Source: Alloascoidea africana (Eukaryota > Ascomycota > Alloascoideomycetes > Alloascoideales > Alloascoideaceae). From it: 64,000 bases of DNA. The notes below the pieces were generated by a model, which saw nothing but the letters and a program-made list of their open reading frames with translations, had not been told where the DNA came from and did no database searches. The translations under genes were made by a program, and so were the position numbers. Below, in pieces: positions 943 through 39,618 of the stretch. The stretch is taken from contig JAKTTT010000011.1 in the NCBI GenBank assembly GCA_030581615.1, positions 124,001 through 188,000 of the forward strand, in the 5' to 3' direction. Position 1 is the first letter of the stretch, and the number at the start of each line of letters is the position of its first letter.

Positions 943-1230
943 TCTGCGTAACCATATAATGTAAAAGGGAAAAATACAGACTGAGAAGAATTACGCACAC
1001 TCCCAAGTTTTGCTTTCAGGATGAGCGAAACATCCAAACATCATAATACTAAATGTATTTACACGAATAACATGCGCTATATATACCAAGTTATATAAAC
1101 AAGACAAGAGGAAGATTGTTGAAAAAAAAAATGAAAGTGGTCATAATGTGAAAAAAATTAATAAAAAAGTTACAAAATCATTGTGCTTTCAAAATGAACT
1201 ACATCGACAATTCTAGTCATAAAATGTGGA

Positions 1231-4200
1231 TCAGTTAGAGCTTGAACTTGAACTTGAGCTATCAATAGCTGTCCATTTTAGAGGTTCTTGACTTGCGCTT
1301 TCCTTATCCTTATCGTCCTTCGAGTCGCTACCAAATAGAATATCTTTTGACGAAGTTGCAGGGGTTAGAGGACTTGAAATATTCACTGGAATGAAAGTCT
1401 TGGGCATTGAAACTCTTGAGAATCGGCTTCTGAGTCTCTGAGATAGGACAAACATGTCAATATGACTAGTAAGAGAAAATCTTCGGATGCAAGATATGTA
1501 ATGTCTAGCATCAAGTTGAATATCCAAGGGATCTTGAGTGTGACACCCAGGAGACATGCTTAGTCTGATTGAGTGTCTTTTGCCTCCTGTTTCAGCGTCT
1601 TCTGATTCATAAAGCTCAAAAACTATTTGCGAAAGGTAGTCCAATTCTGGGAGGGCATTTCTTGCAATTTTCATTGGAATACGCGACTCGTAAATCACAT
1701 TCAATAATGTGTAAATGTGTGATTCCTTGGTAAAATACATTATCGTCGAAGCTGCTTTCTGTTCCTTCATGTTGGTAATGTCTTGCAAAATTTGTTTTGC
1801 CAAAGGCAAGCTTGTAAGAAGGCCAATGTCAAGTTTTTCCGCATCCTCAATGCCATACTCTTGAGGACAAACAAAATCGAAAAGCACCTTTGCCAATCTA
1901 TATAGTTCACGCAATTTTCGAAGTGTTGGGGCATCAAAGGGAGAGCCACCCCGAATATCTTTGGCATTCACATTTGCGTGTCTATAATCTTTCAGCTTTG
2001 AGGAATTGTTAAGTACCCAACCCAGAGACCCAGCAGATGATCCAGAAGACGATAGCTCAAAATTATTCATTGCAAGCAAGTTGATTGGATACTGATCAAT
2101 TAGCCCCGGTAGCACAGCAGCATCCAGGATTTCTTCATCACTTTCAAATGTAGCGTCAGTAGCAAATATTTCTGTGAGAAATTTTCTGTTATGAAGGGCG
2201 TCATGCTTCATTGTATCGTAAAGCTCAGAGATCTTGGAAGGGTCTACTTTCTCCAAGCATGAAAACTCGGAAAACAGTTTATCCCATCTCTCCTTAAACA
2301 GAGCTGGATCCTCTCCACAGCACCAGTTAGACTGCAGCTCACTGACTTCTTTGACCTCAAAATTGTGCTCCACAACTCTATGCAAAAAGTTCATTAATTC
2401 GACCACTCTTTTGATAACAAAGTATGGTTCTGGCATTTTAGGTGGCCATGCAAACTGGCTTGGTGCTTCGGTGCCCTGTCTTAACAGAGGTTTTAGCTTC
2501 TTCTTGACCTTGTCCATCAAATCCTTGGCAGCATTACTGTCATCAAGCAAATCTTTGCGAACATGAAGAAAATCGTCTGGCACAGATTCTTGGCCCAAGA
2601 ACGCTCTTGTCCAAAGTTTTGCAGAGGCAATAACACGACGTTCAGAAGACGTAAACACTTTAACATCATCCAGGCCATCTTTATTAAGTAACAGCATGTC
2701 TTGACGCATTTGAATACCGAGATCGGTTGCCTGGTACATGGCAGAATGTGTAGGCTCACCACCCCACTTGATTATCAGTTGTACCTTCTCAACTTCTTTT
2801 GTAGTATCCTTAAGCTTCAATACAGGCTTCAGCTGAACCTTTGTTCCCGGAAAGTCCATCTTCTTCTCCAATGCCATTGCTAGTTGTGCCAATTTTGCAG
2901 GCTCTTCTGCATTTTGCGCCTCTGCTAGTCGTACAGTAGCAAGAACAACTTTGAGATCATTCTTGTCACGAATGATGACCTCTTCCATATGCCCATTTAA
3001 TAAATTGATAAACAAAGGACTCTTGAACGAAAATTTGAACTTTTGTTTTGGAGTTCGGTCGGCATGTCGAACAACATTGACTTGCCCTTTGAATACCCAT
3101 TTCTGACCCTTTTCTTCCGGTACAACTGGAGGTTCCAGCTTTCTCTGTTCATCTCTATCAACTTTGGCTTTCTTAAAGGTTTCGGAGAGGATCTTGGCAC
3201 AGTTATCGTAGTACTCTTGATTGTCTTTTACAAATGAGAATCCGTTCACATCAATTACAAAGCTCTGCCCGTTTACTCTCAACAAGTCGAATCCACAGAC
3301 CGTTTGGCCAAAAGTTCTTGCTACTCTTCTTGCCATAGTTTTTTCATCTTCTGCTAGCAGTGTAATGTACCTCACTTCTTTTCCATGTGTGTTTCGCCTG
3401 ACAATCCCATCAACAACAGGAGACTTGCGTGTCTCTGCATGGCAGTATGACAGGCCCACGGTATAGGCCTTGACATCTTCAAAGTTGTCTGTATTCATAA
3501 ACTGTTCATAAATATATGAACCGTTCATTCTTGGCGTAGAAATTGCAGGATCAAATTCACTAGATTTGTTGCCAACTTTGCGGAAAAGACGCCGGCCACC
3601 ACCACCATTTGCTTTTGGGTAGTAAATGTAAACATTGTGATCCTCTCCATCTACCGGCTTCTCAACAAATGGCTTTTTGAGAATTTTTCCTTCAACACAC
3701 AGAGTGTCCTCATCTATCATCTCCCATTTAGGTTCAGAAATAGGCTTAACGGTAATACCTCGTTCCAGAAGCTTCTTGCGCATAGCGTCATCAACCCTTG
3801 GACCGCCATCCCTGGAGATCTCCAGCCTGGTGGGCGTTGGCACCTTGTTGACCTCAAGGAGTTGGAGAACCAATCTGCGATCCCAGAGGACCTTCTGCAT
3901 GACAAGATCATTCAGTAAGTACGGCTTCCGCAAATTTGCGTACGCTATTGCCTTGTCCAGTGGGAAGCCGCGCGAGAAAAAACTGATCAAAAAGTCACAG
4001 GTCGGCCAGTTTTCGATTGCTAGAGTCAAATAGAATTTTGTCAGTCACATTTGCATTTGAGACAAGTCATTGGCCTTTTCCTTTGTGAGAGTATCCCTAC
4101 TCGTCCACTTCGAGCTGGATGGGATAGGCTTGATCTTCATCAACCAAAAAAGTGAAGCCAGAGCAAAAATTTCCTACCTTCGTCAAGAATAACCTTGTCG

Positions 4201-13401: not shown

Positions 13402-14913
13402 CTAAGCACGTGTGAAATCTTCTTCCATGTAAAAAGGCGAATCGTCCGTGACAGGTAAGTTCGAACCAACCGAAAAAGCGGAGGCTAGAGTTAAGTTATT
13501 GTTGCCGATAAAACTTCCGTTTTTGTTATTCAACATATAGGAGGGAGAACCGTAAGTCGTGGAAGTGACACTGGATTTGGAATGTGCTTGAGGAAGAAGC
13601 TTTAGATTTGTAGGAGACCTGCATGTCGGGGCTGAAGAGGGAAAAGGAGAGGATAACGACGACGATGAGACTGATGACGAAAAAGAGGAGTTCTGCGTGT
13701 TAAACAAAGCCGAATCAAAAGAAGAATATGACCCTGAATTTTGAGGATGTTGAGGGCCTGAACTGCAAGTGGGGCTAATTTGATTCGAAGTAAAACTGGG
13801 GTTTGCGGTCTGTTGGTCATGACTGAAAGGAAATGGGCGTCCTACTGTTCCTAGCGAGGGAGGGCCCGGTCTATCTGAAAGCTCCATAGGTCTCAGCGAT
13901 GAAAGACTCCAAACGTCTGGAGTCGTCAAGAGAGATGCCCTTGAGGTTCGGCTATCTCTGCGTTTCCGTTCCTGAGGTGTAAGCAGGTCAAATAGTGTAG
14001 ATGGGATTAGCTCTTCTTGCGAATAATAGGAATTCTTGCCCTTAGAATCCTCTTCAAACGTTTCAAAGGCAGTTTCTGTTGGTAATCTGTGTGTCTTTAT
14101 AATATGTCTGCTTGCACTTGGGGTGAAATCCTTGGCGGGATAGTTGTTGTCTATGTTAAACGCATCCCCAGTCAGTTCATTGTTGCCACTAGACAGAGAG
14201 GAGGATAGTCTTGCAGTAGAGGGAGGCCAAACGCCATTAGATCTTGGTGGAGCAAAGACGGTTGAAGACGAGTGGGAAACGGGGGTAATAGGCGAAGTGC
14301 CAATACTCCCGCCAGCATTGCTGCCTCCCATTTTGTACCCGGAAATCGAAGATGACGATGACCTGGAGTGGCTAGAGTGATTTGTAGACAGTGGAGCCAC
14401 GGACATTGATAGCGGCGGCGGGCGATGAGCATCGACAAAGTTGACCATTTTCGCACTATTCCCAAATATCGGAGCAGTGCTGTCTTTCGAGTTCACTACT
14501 GTTCCATCCGGGAGGATATGGGCAAGGGCGCACTTGAGACCAAACTTACAATGGCCCTTCTGGAAGTACTTGCACGGCTTTTGTCCCCACCGCAGCTGAT
14601 CGTCCAGGCTGTGACTGAAAGGGCATGTTTCGCCCGCTTGGCAACAGCCTTGTAGAAAGAACTTGCAAGGCACATGGGAAAGGTCTGATACGAGAAGAAA
14701 GTGGACGAAAATTAGTAAAATAGTTCTGGTAGCTCCAACAACAATTGGCATCGGTCAAACAGATAACAAATGAGAGTATCGCTTACTTTTTGGCTGGCAC
14801 TGGTTCTGATTTTGCGGGCGATGTGTCCGGAACGACATTTGCTGTTGGGGAGCCTGGAAAGGCACATTGCCTGGCAGGCTAATTGGTGGAGGCATAACTT
14901 GCGATCTCATCAT
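13402..14913 (-). CDS. Tandem CCCH zinc-finger protein (Lee1-like)
   Basis: Two exons, 14913-14787 and 14684-13402, with a 102-bp intron (GTAAGC donor, TTACTAAT branch, TATCAG acceptor); 469 aa. The junction gives K-N-LSHVPCKFF. Two CX7CX5CX3H fingers follow directly: CKFFLQGCCQAGETCPFSH and CKYFQKGHCKFGLKCALAH. This is the arrangement of yeast Lee1 and related RNA-binding CCCH proteins. The rest (~350 aa) is Ser/Pro/Asn-rich and probably disordered. Without the intron the frame would start with a hydrophobic false N-terminus read from intron sequence. Role unknown; likely RNA binding or post-transcriptional control. Confidence 0.85.
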
Positions 14914-29944: not shown

Positions 29945-31414
29945 TTAGCTTTTTTTAGCTTTCTTTTTTTGAGGACTATACTTGTAGTCAGGATATAAAA
30001 GTTGGTGAATCTTCTTCTCCTGGGTTGAAAATTCCGAAAATTTCTCTTGCACACTTTTTTCTTCAGTTCTCCACATGATACCAATGACTTGAGAAATATT
30101 TTGATGATTAATACGTTGGAAAACAGAATTGTTAGTCGCATTGATGATTGGTTCATGTTTCGATCTTCCACGACCTTTTTTTCTAGGTTTAAGTCCTTGT
30201 CTATGTCGTTCAAGATCTTGAGGATCAAGTACAGAATTGCCGTCACACATCTGTTGAAGAAGTTCAGCTTCTCTTCCATCAAGAATGCCTTTTTCTAGGG
30301 CAAGAGCCAGGGTGTAGCAATTTGCTGCTTTTGTTTGTACCTTTCTGTAGAGCATGAAGGAGTTCAAAGGCCTTTTGATATAGTTTTTACCTTTGCTCTT
30401 GTGCTTCCTCGATTTTTTTCTGTAGTAATCCATCAAGGCCTGAAAGCGTGCTCCTTTTTCCATTTTCAAGTCTTGAAAGTTTGTTCTTGTAGTAGGCGCT
30501 TCGGTGTTGACATAAGATGAGCAGACCTTAAGTTTGCACTCACCATTTTCCAACTTAAGACAGGTTGTAACTCCATTCTTGCGACAGACTTTTTCAGAGG
30601 GTTCCAGAGAAAATATTTGCAAAACAGTTTCTAAAGTCTGTTTATCGATCTGCTTCTCAGCAGCAAGGCGTCTGATCTCTGCTAATCTCTTTCCGGATAG
30701 ACTTGAGATACCAATCCAACTAAAAGAGTCTCTGTATGGTATTTCTATCACGGTTCCTGGTGCTGTGGTTGGAATTTGGGCCGTGATAAGTGCATAATGC
30801 CGGCTGGGATATCCTTCTGGATTGGGAAGCTGTGGGGGTGGAAGCTGAAGTGTGCCTAGTTGTGGTGGAGGAAAATCATCGGGTTCATCCCTCTTACGTT
30901 TCAATGATGGAAGGAAAGTTTCTGACATAGCCCTGGCGTTGCGGGCTACCTGACTAGAGTCTTGAGGAAAGCCATTTCCGAAGGATGTTTGTTGTTGATG
31001 ATCATGGATGAACCCACCATTGTCGTTAACAATGTTGAAGCTATTGTTCTGCTGATTTTCCAAGGTTCCCATCTCTTGATACTGGTTGGTAAGGGTTGCA
31101 GAAAGAATGAAAGGGGACTGATTATCAGTATCATTTTCTCTGGTTTCGTTATAACACCACAGACCAGAGTTGAAACTGTCATTAGTCTCAGAGGCCGAAG
31201 TAAACGTCACAGGTTCTTGCCGATTGTACGTCATGTTATAGTTTTCACCAAACGGCTCCTTATCGAGTTCTTTGTAATGTCCATTTGTCACGGTGCTTGA
31301 TTCGGGTTGATTAAAATTCATCATGAAGGGACGAACGCTCCCATCTTCTTCGTCTTCCAAGAGGGGTTTGAAATCGAACATTGAATTGTAGTCCATAGTT
31401 GGATGTGCACTCAT
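29945..31414 (-). CDS. HMG-box transcription factor, mating-type (MATA_HMG) class, with split HMG box
   Basis: 489 aa, single exon. The C-terminal HMG box begins at about residue 345 with IKRPLNSFMLYRK (helix 1) and resumes at about 436 with NHQNISQVIGIMWR, ending PDYKYSPQKKKAKKS. The YPDYKYSP(R/Q)(R/K)K ending is typical of mating-type and Ste11-class HMG proteins that bind AACAAAG-like sites. Between the two parts lie about 70 extra residues (359-428; DNA 30131-30340) rich in Leu/Glu then basic residues. Residues about 205-300 form a second conserved-looking region (SFSWIGISSLSGKRLAEIRRL, FSLEPSEKVCRKNG). The N-terminal 200 residues are Asn/Gln/Ser-rich and acidic, like an activation domain. 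Whether this is the MAT locus gene or a Ste11-like regulator is undecided: SLA2 and APN2, usual MAT neighbours, are absent from the window. Confidence 0.85.
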   Translation of the reverse strand: MSAHPTMDYNSMFDFKPLLEDEEDGSVRPFMMNFNQPESSTVTNGHYKELDKEPFGENYNMTYNRQEPVTFTSASETNDSFNSGLWCYNETRENDTDNQSPFILSATLTNQYQEMGTLENQQNNSFNIVNDNGGFIHDHQQQTSFGNGFPQDSSQVARNARAMSETFLPSLKRKRDEPDDFPPPQLGTLQLPPPQLPNPEGYPSRHYALITAQIPTTAPGTVIEIPYRDSFSWIGISSLSGKRLAEIRRLAAEKQIDKQTLETVLQIFSLEPSEKVCRKNGVTTCLKLENGECKLKVCSSYVNTEAPTTRTNFQDLKMEKGARFQALMDYYRKKSRKHKSKGKNYIKRPLNSFMLYRKVQTKAANCYTLALALEKGILDGREAELLQQMCDGNSVLDPQDLERHRQGLKPRKKGRGRSKHEPIINATNNSVFQRINHQNISQVIGIMWRTEEKSVQEKFSEFSTQEKKIHQLLYPDYKYSPQKKKAKKS

Positions 31415-37851: not shown

Positions 37852-39618
37852 ATGGGCTCCAAGAAGAGCACACAAGCTCGTCTTTCGAGGCTCCCAACGC
37901 TTTTTGAAGTACTGAACAGGAAGACCGAGGCTCCAGTGGATCTATGGTCTTTCTACTTGTTCATGAGAGATGAACAAAAAAGCATCGATTATCTTGATTT
38001 TTGGATTGATGTAATTCAACACCTGTCATTGTGCCGTTACTATGTAAGGAGGCTTAAGCAATCCATCCTGCTTACCGAGCAACAAGAGCGTATCAGGTCA
38101 GGGGGAGGAGACGGAGGCTCCATGCTAACTATCACGGGAGGAAAAAGTGGAGCAGCTGGAGAAGGGAAAAGTAACACTTCGAGTGTGCTTTTGGACGCGC
38201 TGATCCAAGGAGGTGTACTTGATGAGCGTGATACACATAGACTTAGCTCTTTGCTAAGGGGAGAAGAGCTTAATGCGTTAGACCCGAAAGTTTTATCTCG
38301 GATCTCACACCTTGCCGATAAATTAAGTAAAGAACGAGAATCTGGCTACAATCCTAATGCTCATTTTTCAACATTTAGCGCTGTCTCGTCTGTCTATCCT
38401 GAAAAGATTTATGACAGATATGCCAGCTCGGTAGGATCTCCTAAACGAGAGAGGATTTACGACAACTATAGCAGTGACGAGGAGAACTATCTAGAGGATG
38501 CAAATACCCGAGTGTCTGAAAACGTTACGAGAATTACTTCACAATCCGGAACTTTACAAGACTGGAAAAAGCCACGAAACAAAGAAGCGAAACCTCTTTT
38601 AGATAATAGGACTAAAACTGGGATAAGCGCCAACATGGAAGAAGTGGAATTGGAACCAGCAGCTACTTTAGTCTCATCAAATTCTAGACGACAACCAAGT
38701 TATTCAACTTCAGTGCCCCTGCCTGAAGACACCCCAACTCATACACGAACCAGATCTAAATCCACCAATACCAATGCAGTCAGCATCATTAACGAAGATA
38801 AAATAAATAATTATGCTCCAATGTCGATAGAAATGCTGGAAGAGCTTTTCCCACAATTACAACAGGCAACAGGCAGCAGCTTTGTTTCACGACAGGATAT
38901 CAGGGATTCCTCGAGAAGATTACTGGTAACATACTTTATCCCCGGTGCAGAGCGTGAATTAATAATTCCAGCACAGATCATTCAAAAAGTAAGGCATGCT
39001 GTTGAAGTGGAGGGTAGAGACGACCCTGAAGTATTTGAAGATGTTAGAGAGTATGTCTTTCAAATAATGGAGCAGGACTATTTCCCTGCATTTCTACAGT
39101 ATAAAGCTATGGGAAATTTGACCCCTCAAGATGCATTTATCAGACTTGTTTTTGGTTTGATTTGTATTTGGGCTGGGTTTTGGCTAGGTTTTGTATTCAT
39201 ATTTTTGGACTGGCAACCACAGAAGATGCGGGCTACCGTATTAATACCGTTTGCGGTTGGTATTTATTACCTTGTTGCCTCTATTTACAGGTTAGATCCA
39301 GTAATGTGCTGGTTGGGTTATAGTGAAACCATTGGTTATGCATCTGAGGACGACTTGGAAGTTTCGATGCCATTCACAGACAAGGGAATTCCAGACGTAT
39401 TTGAAGAATCAAATGGAAGGTTTGGAAGAAGCAAGAGAAGGAACAGGCAAGTGGGTAGATCTTGTTGTTATCCATTCAACAAGTTTATGGTTCCTATTAA
39501 AGAGCCATATATCCATATGTTGTTGCTTCGGAGGAGCTTTTTTGTAACCTTTTTGGTGACCTTCATAACGGCCGGGTTGACAGTAGTGTTTGTGTTTGTG
39601 CCTGGTAAGAGATTATAA
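37852..39618 (+). CDS. RAX1: Bud-site selection protein Rax1 (RGS-like, multi-pass)
   Basis: 588 aa, single exon. It opens LSRLPTLFEVLNRKTEAPVDL and SYLFMRDE-like text typical of Rax1, and an RGS-like region follows in two parts interrupted by a low-complexity Ser/Gly insert. Later come FPQLQQATGSSFV and the helix HAVEVEGRDDPEVFEDVREYVFQIME. Three membrane segments lie at about 432-452, 465-482 and 563-583. Rax1 with Rax2 marks cell poles for bipolar budding in yeast; in filamentous fungi it is also a candidate RGS regulator. The first ATG is used. S. cerevisiae Rax1 is 435 aa, so this protein has larger linkers. Confidence 0.88.
   Translation: MGSKKSTQARLSRLPTLFEVLNRKTEAPVDLWSFYLFMRDEQKSIDYLDFWIDVIQHLSLCRYYVRRLKQSILLTEQQERIRSGGGDGGSMLTITGGKSGAAGEGKSNTSSVLLDALIQGGVLDERDTHRLSSLLRGEELNALDPKVLSRISHLADKLSKERESGYNPNAHFSTFSAVSSVYPEKIYDRYASSVGSPKRERIYDNYSSDEENYLEDANTRVSENVTRITSQSGTLQDWKKPRNKEAKPLLDNRTKTGISANMEEVELEPAATLVSSNSRRQPSYSTSVPLPEDTPTHTRTRSKSTNTNAVSIINEDKINNYAPMSIEMLEELFPQLQQATGSSFVSRQDIRDSSRRLLVTYFIPGAERELIIPAQIIQKVRHAVEVEGRDDPEVFEDVREYVFQIMEQDYFPAFLQYKAMGNLTPQDAFIRLVFGLICIWAGFWLGFVFIFLDWQPQKMRATVLIPFAVGIYYLVASIYRLDPVMCWLGYSETIGYASEDDLEVSMPFTDKGIPDVFEESNGRFGRSKRRNRQVGRSCCYPFNKFMVPIKEPYIHMLLLRRSFFVTFLVTFITAGLTVVFVFVPGKRL

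Follow-up and report, generated by a model that had tools for sequence, protein, structure and literature searches.

The HMG-box gene

The analysed window (64,000 nt, C11:124001-188000 of the Alloascoidea africana genome assembly) carries on its reverse strand an uninterrupted reading frame for a protein with a split HMG box, which is preceded by a conserved upstream region (Table 1). The frame had been reported as open throughout, and this was confirmed: there is no stop among its 489 codons, including the 231 nt that encode residues 359–435, a span that stayed open in 34 of 5000 base shuffles. CTG was read as leucine, which is reasonable here because, where the cytochrome c1 gene aligns with a PDB chain, each of its three CTG codons meets a leucine of that chain. 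Cytochrome c1 scored 458, 454 and 437 bits against chains that we take to be those of S. cerevisiae, Candida and Yarrowia, respectively, the last bearing a YALI label.

Pfam HMG_box is the sole match above cut-off in the protein (31.4 bits versus a cut-off of 25.4), with its best stretch at residues 435–478 and profile positions 26–69; a second, weaker HMG_box stretch was counted at E ≤1. In phmmer comparisons with SOX-5, SOX-9 and LEF-1, helix 1 was aligned separately from the rest of the box, and in the case of SOX-5 residues 342–361 fell on chain positions 1–20 and residues 431–485 on positions 26–80. HMG boxes of SOX, SRY, LEF or capicua type accounted for 24 of the 25 PDB sequences listed. 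Eight of the nine members of the family described below match HMG_box at E ≤0.1, and a tree of box cores separates this family from two NHP6-like boxes. The motif, the Pfam match and the PDB relatives thus support the class named in the preliminary description, and the gene is predicted to encode a sequence-specific transcription factor of the fungal MATA/Ste11 class. Two AlphaFold models computed from the single sequence of the window protein were too poor (pLDDT 38.5 and 48.6) to serve in a fold search.

Table 1. Features of the split-box gene, in window coordinates. The pN/pS values (C11 versus its closest copy, C7) are ratios of proportions and not exact rates, because synonymous sites are near saturation.
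Feature	Residues	Position	Strand	pN/pS	Evidence or remark
MATA/Ste11-type HMG-box frame, uninterrupted	1–489	29945..31414	−		489 aa, TAA stop; Pfam HMG_box E 2.5e-7
Conserved upstream region	230–300	30515..30727	−	0.14	Family alignment
HMG helix 1 motif KRPLNSFMLYRK	347–358	30341..30376	−	0.05	phmmer to SOX-5; family alignment
First part of enlarged connection, conserved (VQTKAANCYTLALALEKGIL)	359–378	30281..30340	−	0.08	A370 identical in 9/9
Donor-like GTACAA (codons Val-Gln)		30335..30340	−		In 2/9 copies; judged coincidence
Variable middle of connection	379–418	30161..30280	−	0.47	Mean pairwise identity 0.15 in family
Connection end adjoining helix 2 (..HEPIINATNNSVFQRI)	419–435	30110..30160	−	0.05	
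Branch-like GACTAAC (codons Ala-Thr-Asn)		30131..30137	−		C14 keeps the residues, writes ACAAAC; judged coincidence
HMG helices 2-3	436–482	29969..30109	−	0.14	Pfam, phmmer, family alignment

Enlarged connection from helix 1 to helix 2

As a rule, HMG boxes are short and hardly vary in length. Here, 81 residues lie between K358 of helix 1 (..FMLYRK358) and I440 of helix 2, versus 17 in three HMG proteins of the same genome (on contigs C41, C1 and C40) that we take to be RFG1/ROX1-like. The SOX-5 alignment places 69 residues where SOX-5 has 5, and both comparisons yield 64 extra residues; counted up to N436, the connection comprises 77 residues. The enlargement reported in the preliminary description is therefore real, but its figures (about 20 residues as the normal spacing, and residues 359–428 as the inserted segment) were near the mark but inexact. 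As a control, in each of the five HMG boxes of the genome with the highest Pfam scores, the matched residues and the profile stretch are of the same length; among the lower-scoring ones, two run 5 residues longer than the profile stretch and one 3 residues shorter. By its Pfam match the gene is a predicted HMG-box protein, yet one that lies outside the usual helix 1-helix 2 spacing.

The sharp gap in length between split and canonical boxes might suggest that another gene was the source of the insert, captured as an independent domain. However, a genome search with its 77 residues alone matched family members only (five places, C11 included) and revealed no source in the same genome. Moreover, no Pfam match above cut-off covers the insert (a weak P4Ha_N match at residues 319–365 is below its own cut-off), and capture is considered very unlikely. 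An amphipathic continuation of helix 1 is retained as conjecture, the helical-moment test of residues 349–376 having been negative, with values at least equal in 3801 of 5000 shuffles.

Ste11 has a KRPLNSFMLYR-type helix 1 and a YKY-type end, and in its N-terminal box helices 1 and 2 are joined by a short connection. The window gene shares the helix 1 motif, the YKY-type end and the predicted sequence-specific MATA class, but differs in its 64 extra residues, the C-terminal position of its box, its conserved upstream region and its many paralogues. The RFG1/ROX1-like proteins likewise have a MATA-class box, theirs ending in PDYRYQPRR. Unlike the window gene, they have a canonical connection and fall on a separate branch, and the helix 1 coding sequence of each has a predicted intron, located between RPRN and AFIL.

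A family of split boxes in the same genome

A tblastn search of the genome (23.18 Mb in 138 contigs) revealed nine further loci at E <1e-13 (on contigs C7, C101, C54, C46, C14, C102, C133, C82 and C19) and a fragment on C71; the RFG1/ROX1-like boxes matched more weakly. The closest copy is that on C7, with 66% identity over 438 residues. The frame is intact at nine loci, C11 included; it is broken in the C133 and C71 copies, and the family counts exclude both. All nine intact members have an enlarged connection, with helix 1-helix 2 spacings of 43–82 residues versus 17 in the three RFG1/ROX1-like boxes. This corresponds to 26–65 extra residues: 64 in C11 and C7, 65 in C101, 60 in C54, 63 in C46, 58 in C14, 46 in C102 and C82, and 26 in C19. 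The frames of C54 and C102 stop early in helix 3. In the family alignment, residues 419–435 have a similar counterpart in C14, whereas in C19, C82 and C102 this stretch is either short or dissimilar. The presence of the enlarged connection in 9/9 intact members supports the proposal of a real lineage-specific module. The preliminary description had named, as a finding that would speak against its own reading, close relatives sharing the loop as an ordinary family feature, and such sharing is indeed found, among paralogues of the same genome.

The upstream region, at approximately residues 230–300, is also conserved in the family, with W233, R243 and A251 invariant; neither a Pfam scan of the nine members nor a PDB profile search gave it a name. 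NCBIfam returned no match for the three family members tested, and neither the viral collection viral_contigs nor the prokaryote collection genome_contigs yielded any relatives. In the tree of box cores, which was computed from 60 columns and omits the connection, a branch with 86/100 support separates the nine split members from the three RFG1/ROX1-like boxes. This topology, in which 7 of the 11 inner branches are open, fits a single origin of the enlarged connection but falls short of proof.

C7 also harbors a second copy of a CCCH zinc-finger gene (window 13402-14751), approximately 11 kb from the C7 paralogue and in the opposite relative orientation compared with the window. Because this gene too is duplicated near the C7 paralogue, the C11/C7 pair may have resulted from a block duplication and a later rearrangement. 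The contig ends of C102 and C133 are 89% identical over 1197 nt (the frame of the C133 copy being broken), and represent either diverged alleles or a recent duplicate. With regard to a subtelomeric expansion, 20 contig ends inspected by eye, 110 nt each, displayed no obvious telomere repeat. Contig C1 ends in AGATCGGAAGAGCACA, presumably an Illumina adapter and hence an assembly artefact. A whole-genome hybrid was also considered and rejected: the eIF4G-like and NOG1-like genes, neighbours of an RGS-domain gene, have no second full copy, whereas the RGS-domain gene has four. The latter gene (window 37852-39618), which we take to be RAX1-like, has its further copies at C4:81676, C27:199817 and C10:60380, with 54–60% identity.

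Selection on the connection

In the C11/C7 pair, purifying selection acts on both ends of the insert, which are constrained like the helices, while the middle is far more variable (Table 1). A low ratio was also found for the first part of the connection between C19 and C82 (pN/pS 0.06). Outside the closest pair, the values for residues 359–378 and 419–435, respectively, were 0.49 and 0.43 for C11-C101, 0.18 and 0.59 for C7-C101, 0.63 and 0.40 for C11-C14, and 1.18 and 0.77 for C54-C46. Constraint has thus either been partly lost in these pairs or is masked by alignment and saturation. Positive selection in C54/C46 was considered, pN exceeding pS in some segments of the family alignment, and was dropped after a pairwise bootstrap in which the pN-pS intervals included zero in all segments except helix 1, which is constrained. 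In the pairwise alignment of these two genes, pN was 0.52 and pS 0.48 over the whole insert, and helices 2-3 showed no significant pN-pS difference.

These data bear on whether the insert is a loop without function, relaxed in sequence and tolerated at a turn exposed to solvent. Such a loop would account for the variable middle and the variable length of the insert, for pN close to pS in C54/C46 and for the weak constraint in several distant pairs. Nevertheless, it is rather unlikely given the strong conservation of both ends between C11 and C7 and of the first part between C19 and C82, together with an alanine (A370) retained in every intact member.

Splice-like signals

The GTACAA and GACTAAC sequences at the two ends of the insert are present as previously described, and the nearby CTCAAG acceptor is indeed out of phase (253 nt). 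It had been suggested from these signals that the insert may be a captured or exonised intron. The alternative considered here is an intron, or one exonised not long ago, that is spliced out of some transcripts. The AAG|GTACAA and GACTAAC pair speaks for it; in C7, moreover, a 240-nt span from GTACAA to CAG is in phase and has an ACTAAC approximately 32 nt upstream, and introns are inferred inside helix 1 in three other HMG genes of the genome. However, the acceptor CAG of C7 reads CAA in C11, and with the C7 span excised, NHQ too would be lost and the helices would have no connection. GTACAA is confined to C11 and C7, the other seven copies having TTCCAA, ATGCAA, ATGCAA, TTTGTG, TATCTT, TATCAA and TTCCAG at that position. 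At the branch-like site, C14 retains Asn-Ala-Thr-Asn-Asn without the branch consensus. In C11 no in-phase AG occurs within 112 nt past this site; the nearest, at 113 nt, lies within the coding sequence of helices 2-3, and its use would delete helix 2. The sole in-phase donor/acceptor pair inside the C11 insert spans 90 nt and lacks a branch site.

Four introns inferred from frames in the window, in the cytochrome c1 gene and in genes that we take to be NFS1 (which also fits Pfam Aminotran_5) and a kinase, start with GTAAGT or GTATGT; in three of them a CTAAC or CTAAT is located close to the 3' end. No in-phase donor and acceptor of this type were found for the insert. The rarity of the donor among the copies, the codon changes at the branch-like site and the lack of a suitable in-phase AG, together with the purifying selection on the insert ends in C11/C7, make an intron extremely unlikely, and this explanation was discarded. 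The occurrence of the insert throughout the intact sister genes points instead to an inherited family feature and not to a leftover intron. With this correction, gene predictors should not splice the segment out.

Relation to the mating-type locus

Contig C31 has matches to MAT-alpha1 (C31:200552) and, approximately 6 kb away, to I_LWEQ (SLA2-type; C31:206997). This region (C31:200552-207443) is likely the mating-type locus, and its content suggests an alpha idiomorph in this strain. No member of the split-box family was found on C31 by tblastn, and the window gene is on C11, not beside the SLA2-type gene; its mating-type class is therefore a matter of sequence and not of location. MAT-alpha1 proteins (PF04769) resemble the family in having a derived HMG box in mating regulators. 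However, only one of the nine members shows a PF04769 match, and a weak one (0.0061), while the alpha1 match of the genome is a separate gene on C31.

Autoregulation through Ste11 TR-boxes was also considered and set aside for want of a clear excess upstream of the members. With one mismatch allowed, the TR-box motif, which we take to be the Ste11 site, was found 0 times upstream of the C11 gene and 4 times over the nine members versus 1.7 expected, one of the nine upstream regions being only 153 nt long. Separately, a 319-aa frame at 1150-2106 (+) of locus L007 (C40:11459-12103) encodes tandem HMG boxes (three by Pfam, four by eye) with a possible mitochondrial leader, and is perhaps an unusual multi-box mtHMG protein.

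According to the passages of PMC3730723 examined, in which the word insertion does not occur, S. pombe Ste11 and its orthologues PaHMG5 and FMF-1 belong to the MATA_HMG subfamily, and most MATA_HMG proteins act in sexual processes, ROX1 being one of the few that do not. From its MATA class, a role of the window gene in sexual or developmental regulation may be proposed. None of the titles listed by the literature searches names such an HMG-box insert. Specialists of this yeast group may know it.

Interpretation

The window gene most probably belongs to an expanded MATA/Ste11-type HMG family whose common ancestor already had the enlarged helix 1-helix 2 connection, a reading drawn from sequence comparison to which we assign a probability of roughly 0.8. 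Under this reading, the insert would be translated in the main transcript, its ends would extend helix 1 and shape the path into helix 2, and its variable, probably flexible middle would be looped out of the box. The three helices would still form the usual L-shaped minor-groove binder, and the extra module, placed at the tip between helices 1 and 2, could tune bending or contact a partner. A bolder version holds that these are lineage-specific factors with a rebuilt box, in which the enlarged module and the upstream region form a new composite DNA- or partner-binding unit, and that the family multiplied and diverged quickly as sexual or hyphal regulators; we regard this version as possible but doubtful.

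The turnover of the paralogues suggests regulators with specialised roles, perhaps, to judge from the class of the proteins, in mating, meiosis or filamentous growth. With 26–65 extra residues inside an HMG box and with conservation of both insert ends between its two closest members, the family is a natural test of how far this fold stretches, and it could be used to test whether the turn between helix 1 and helix 2 serves to tune bending or to recruit partners.
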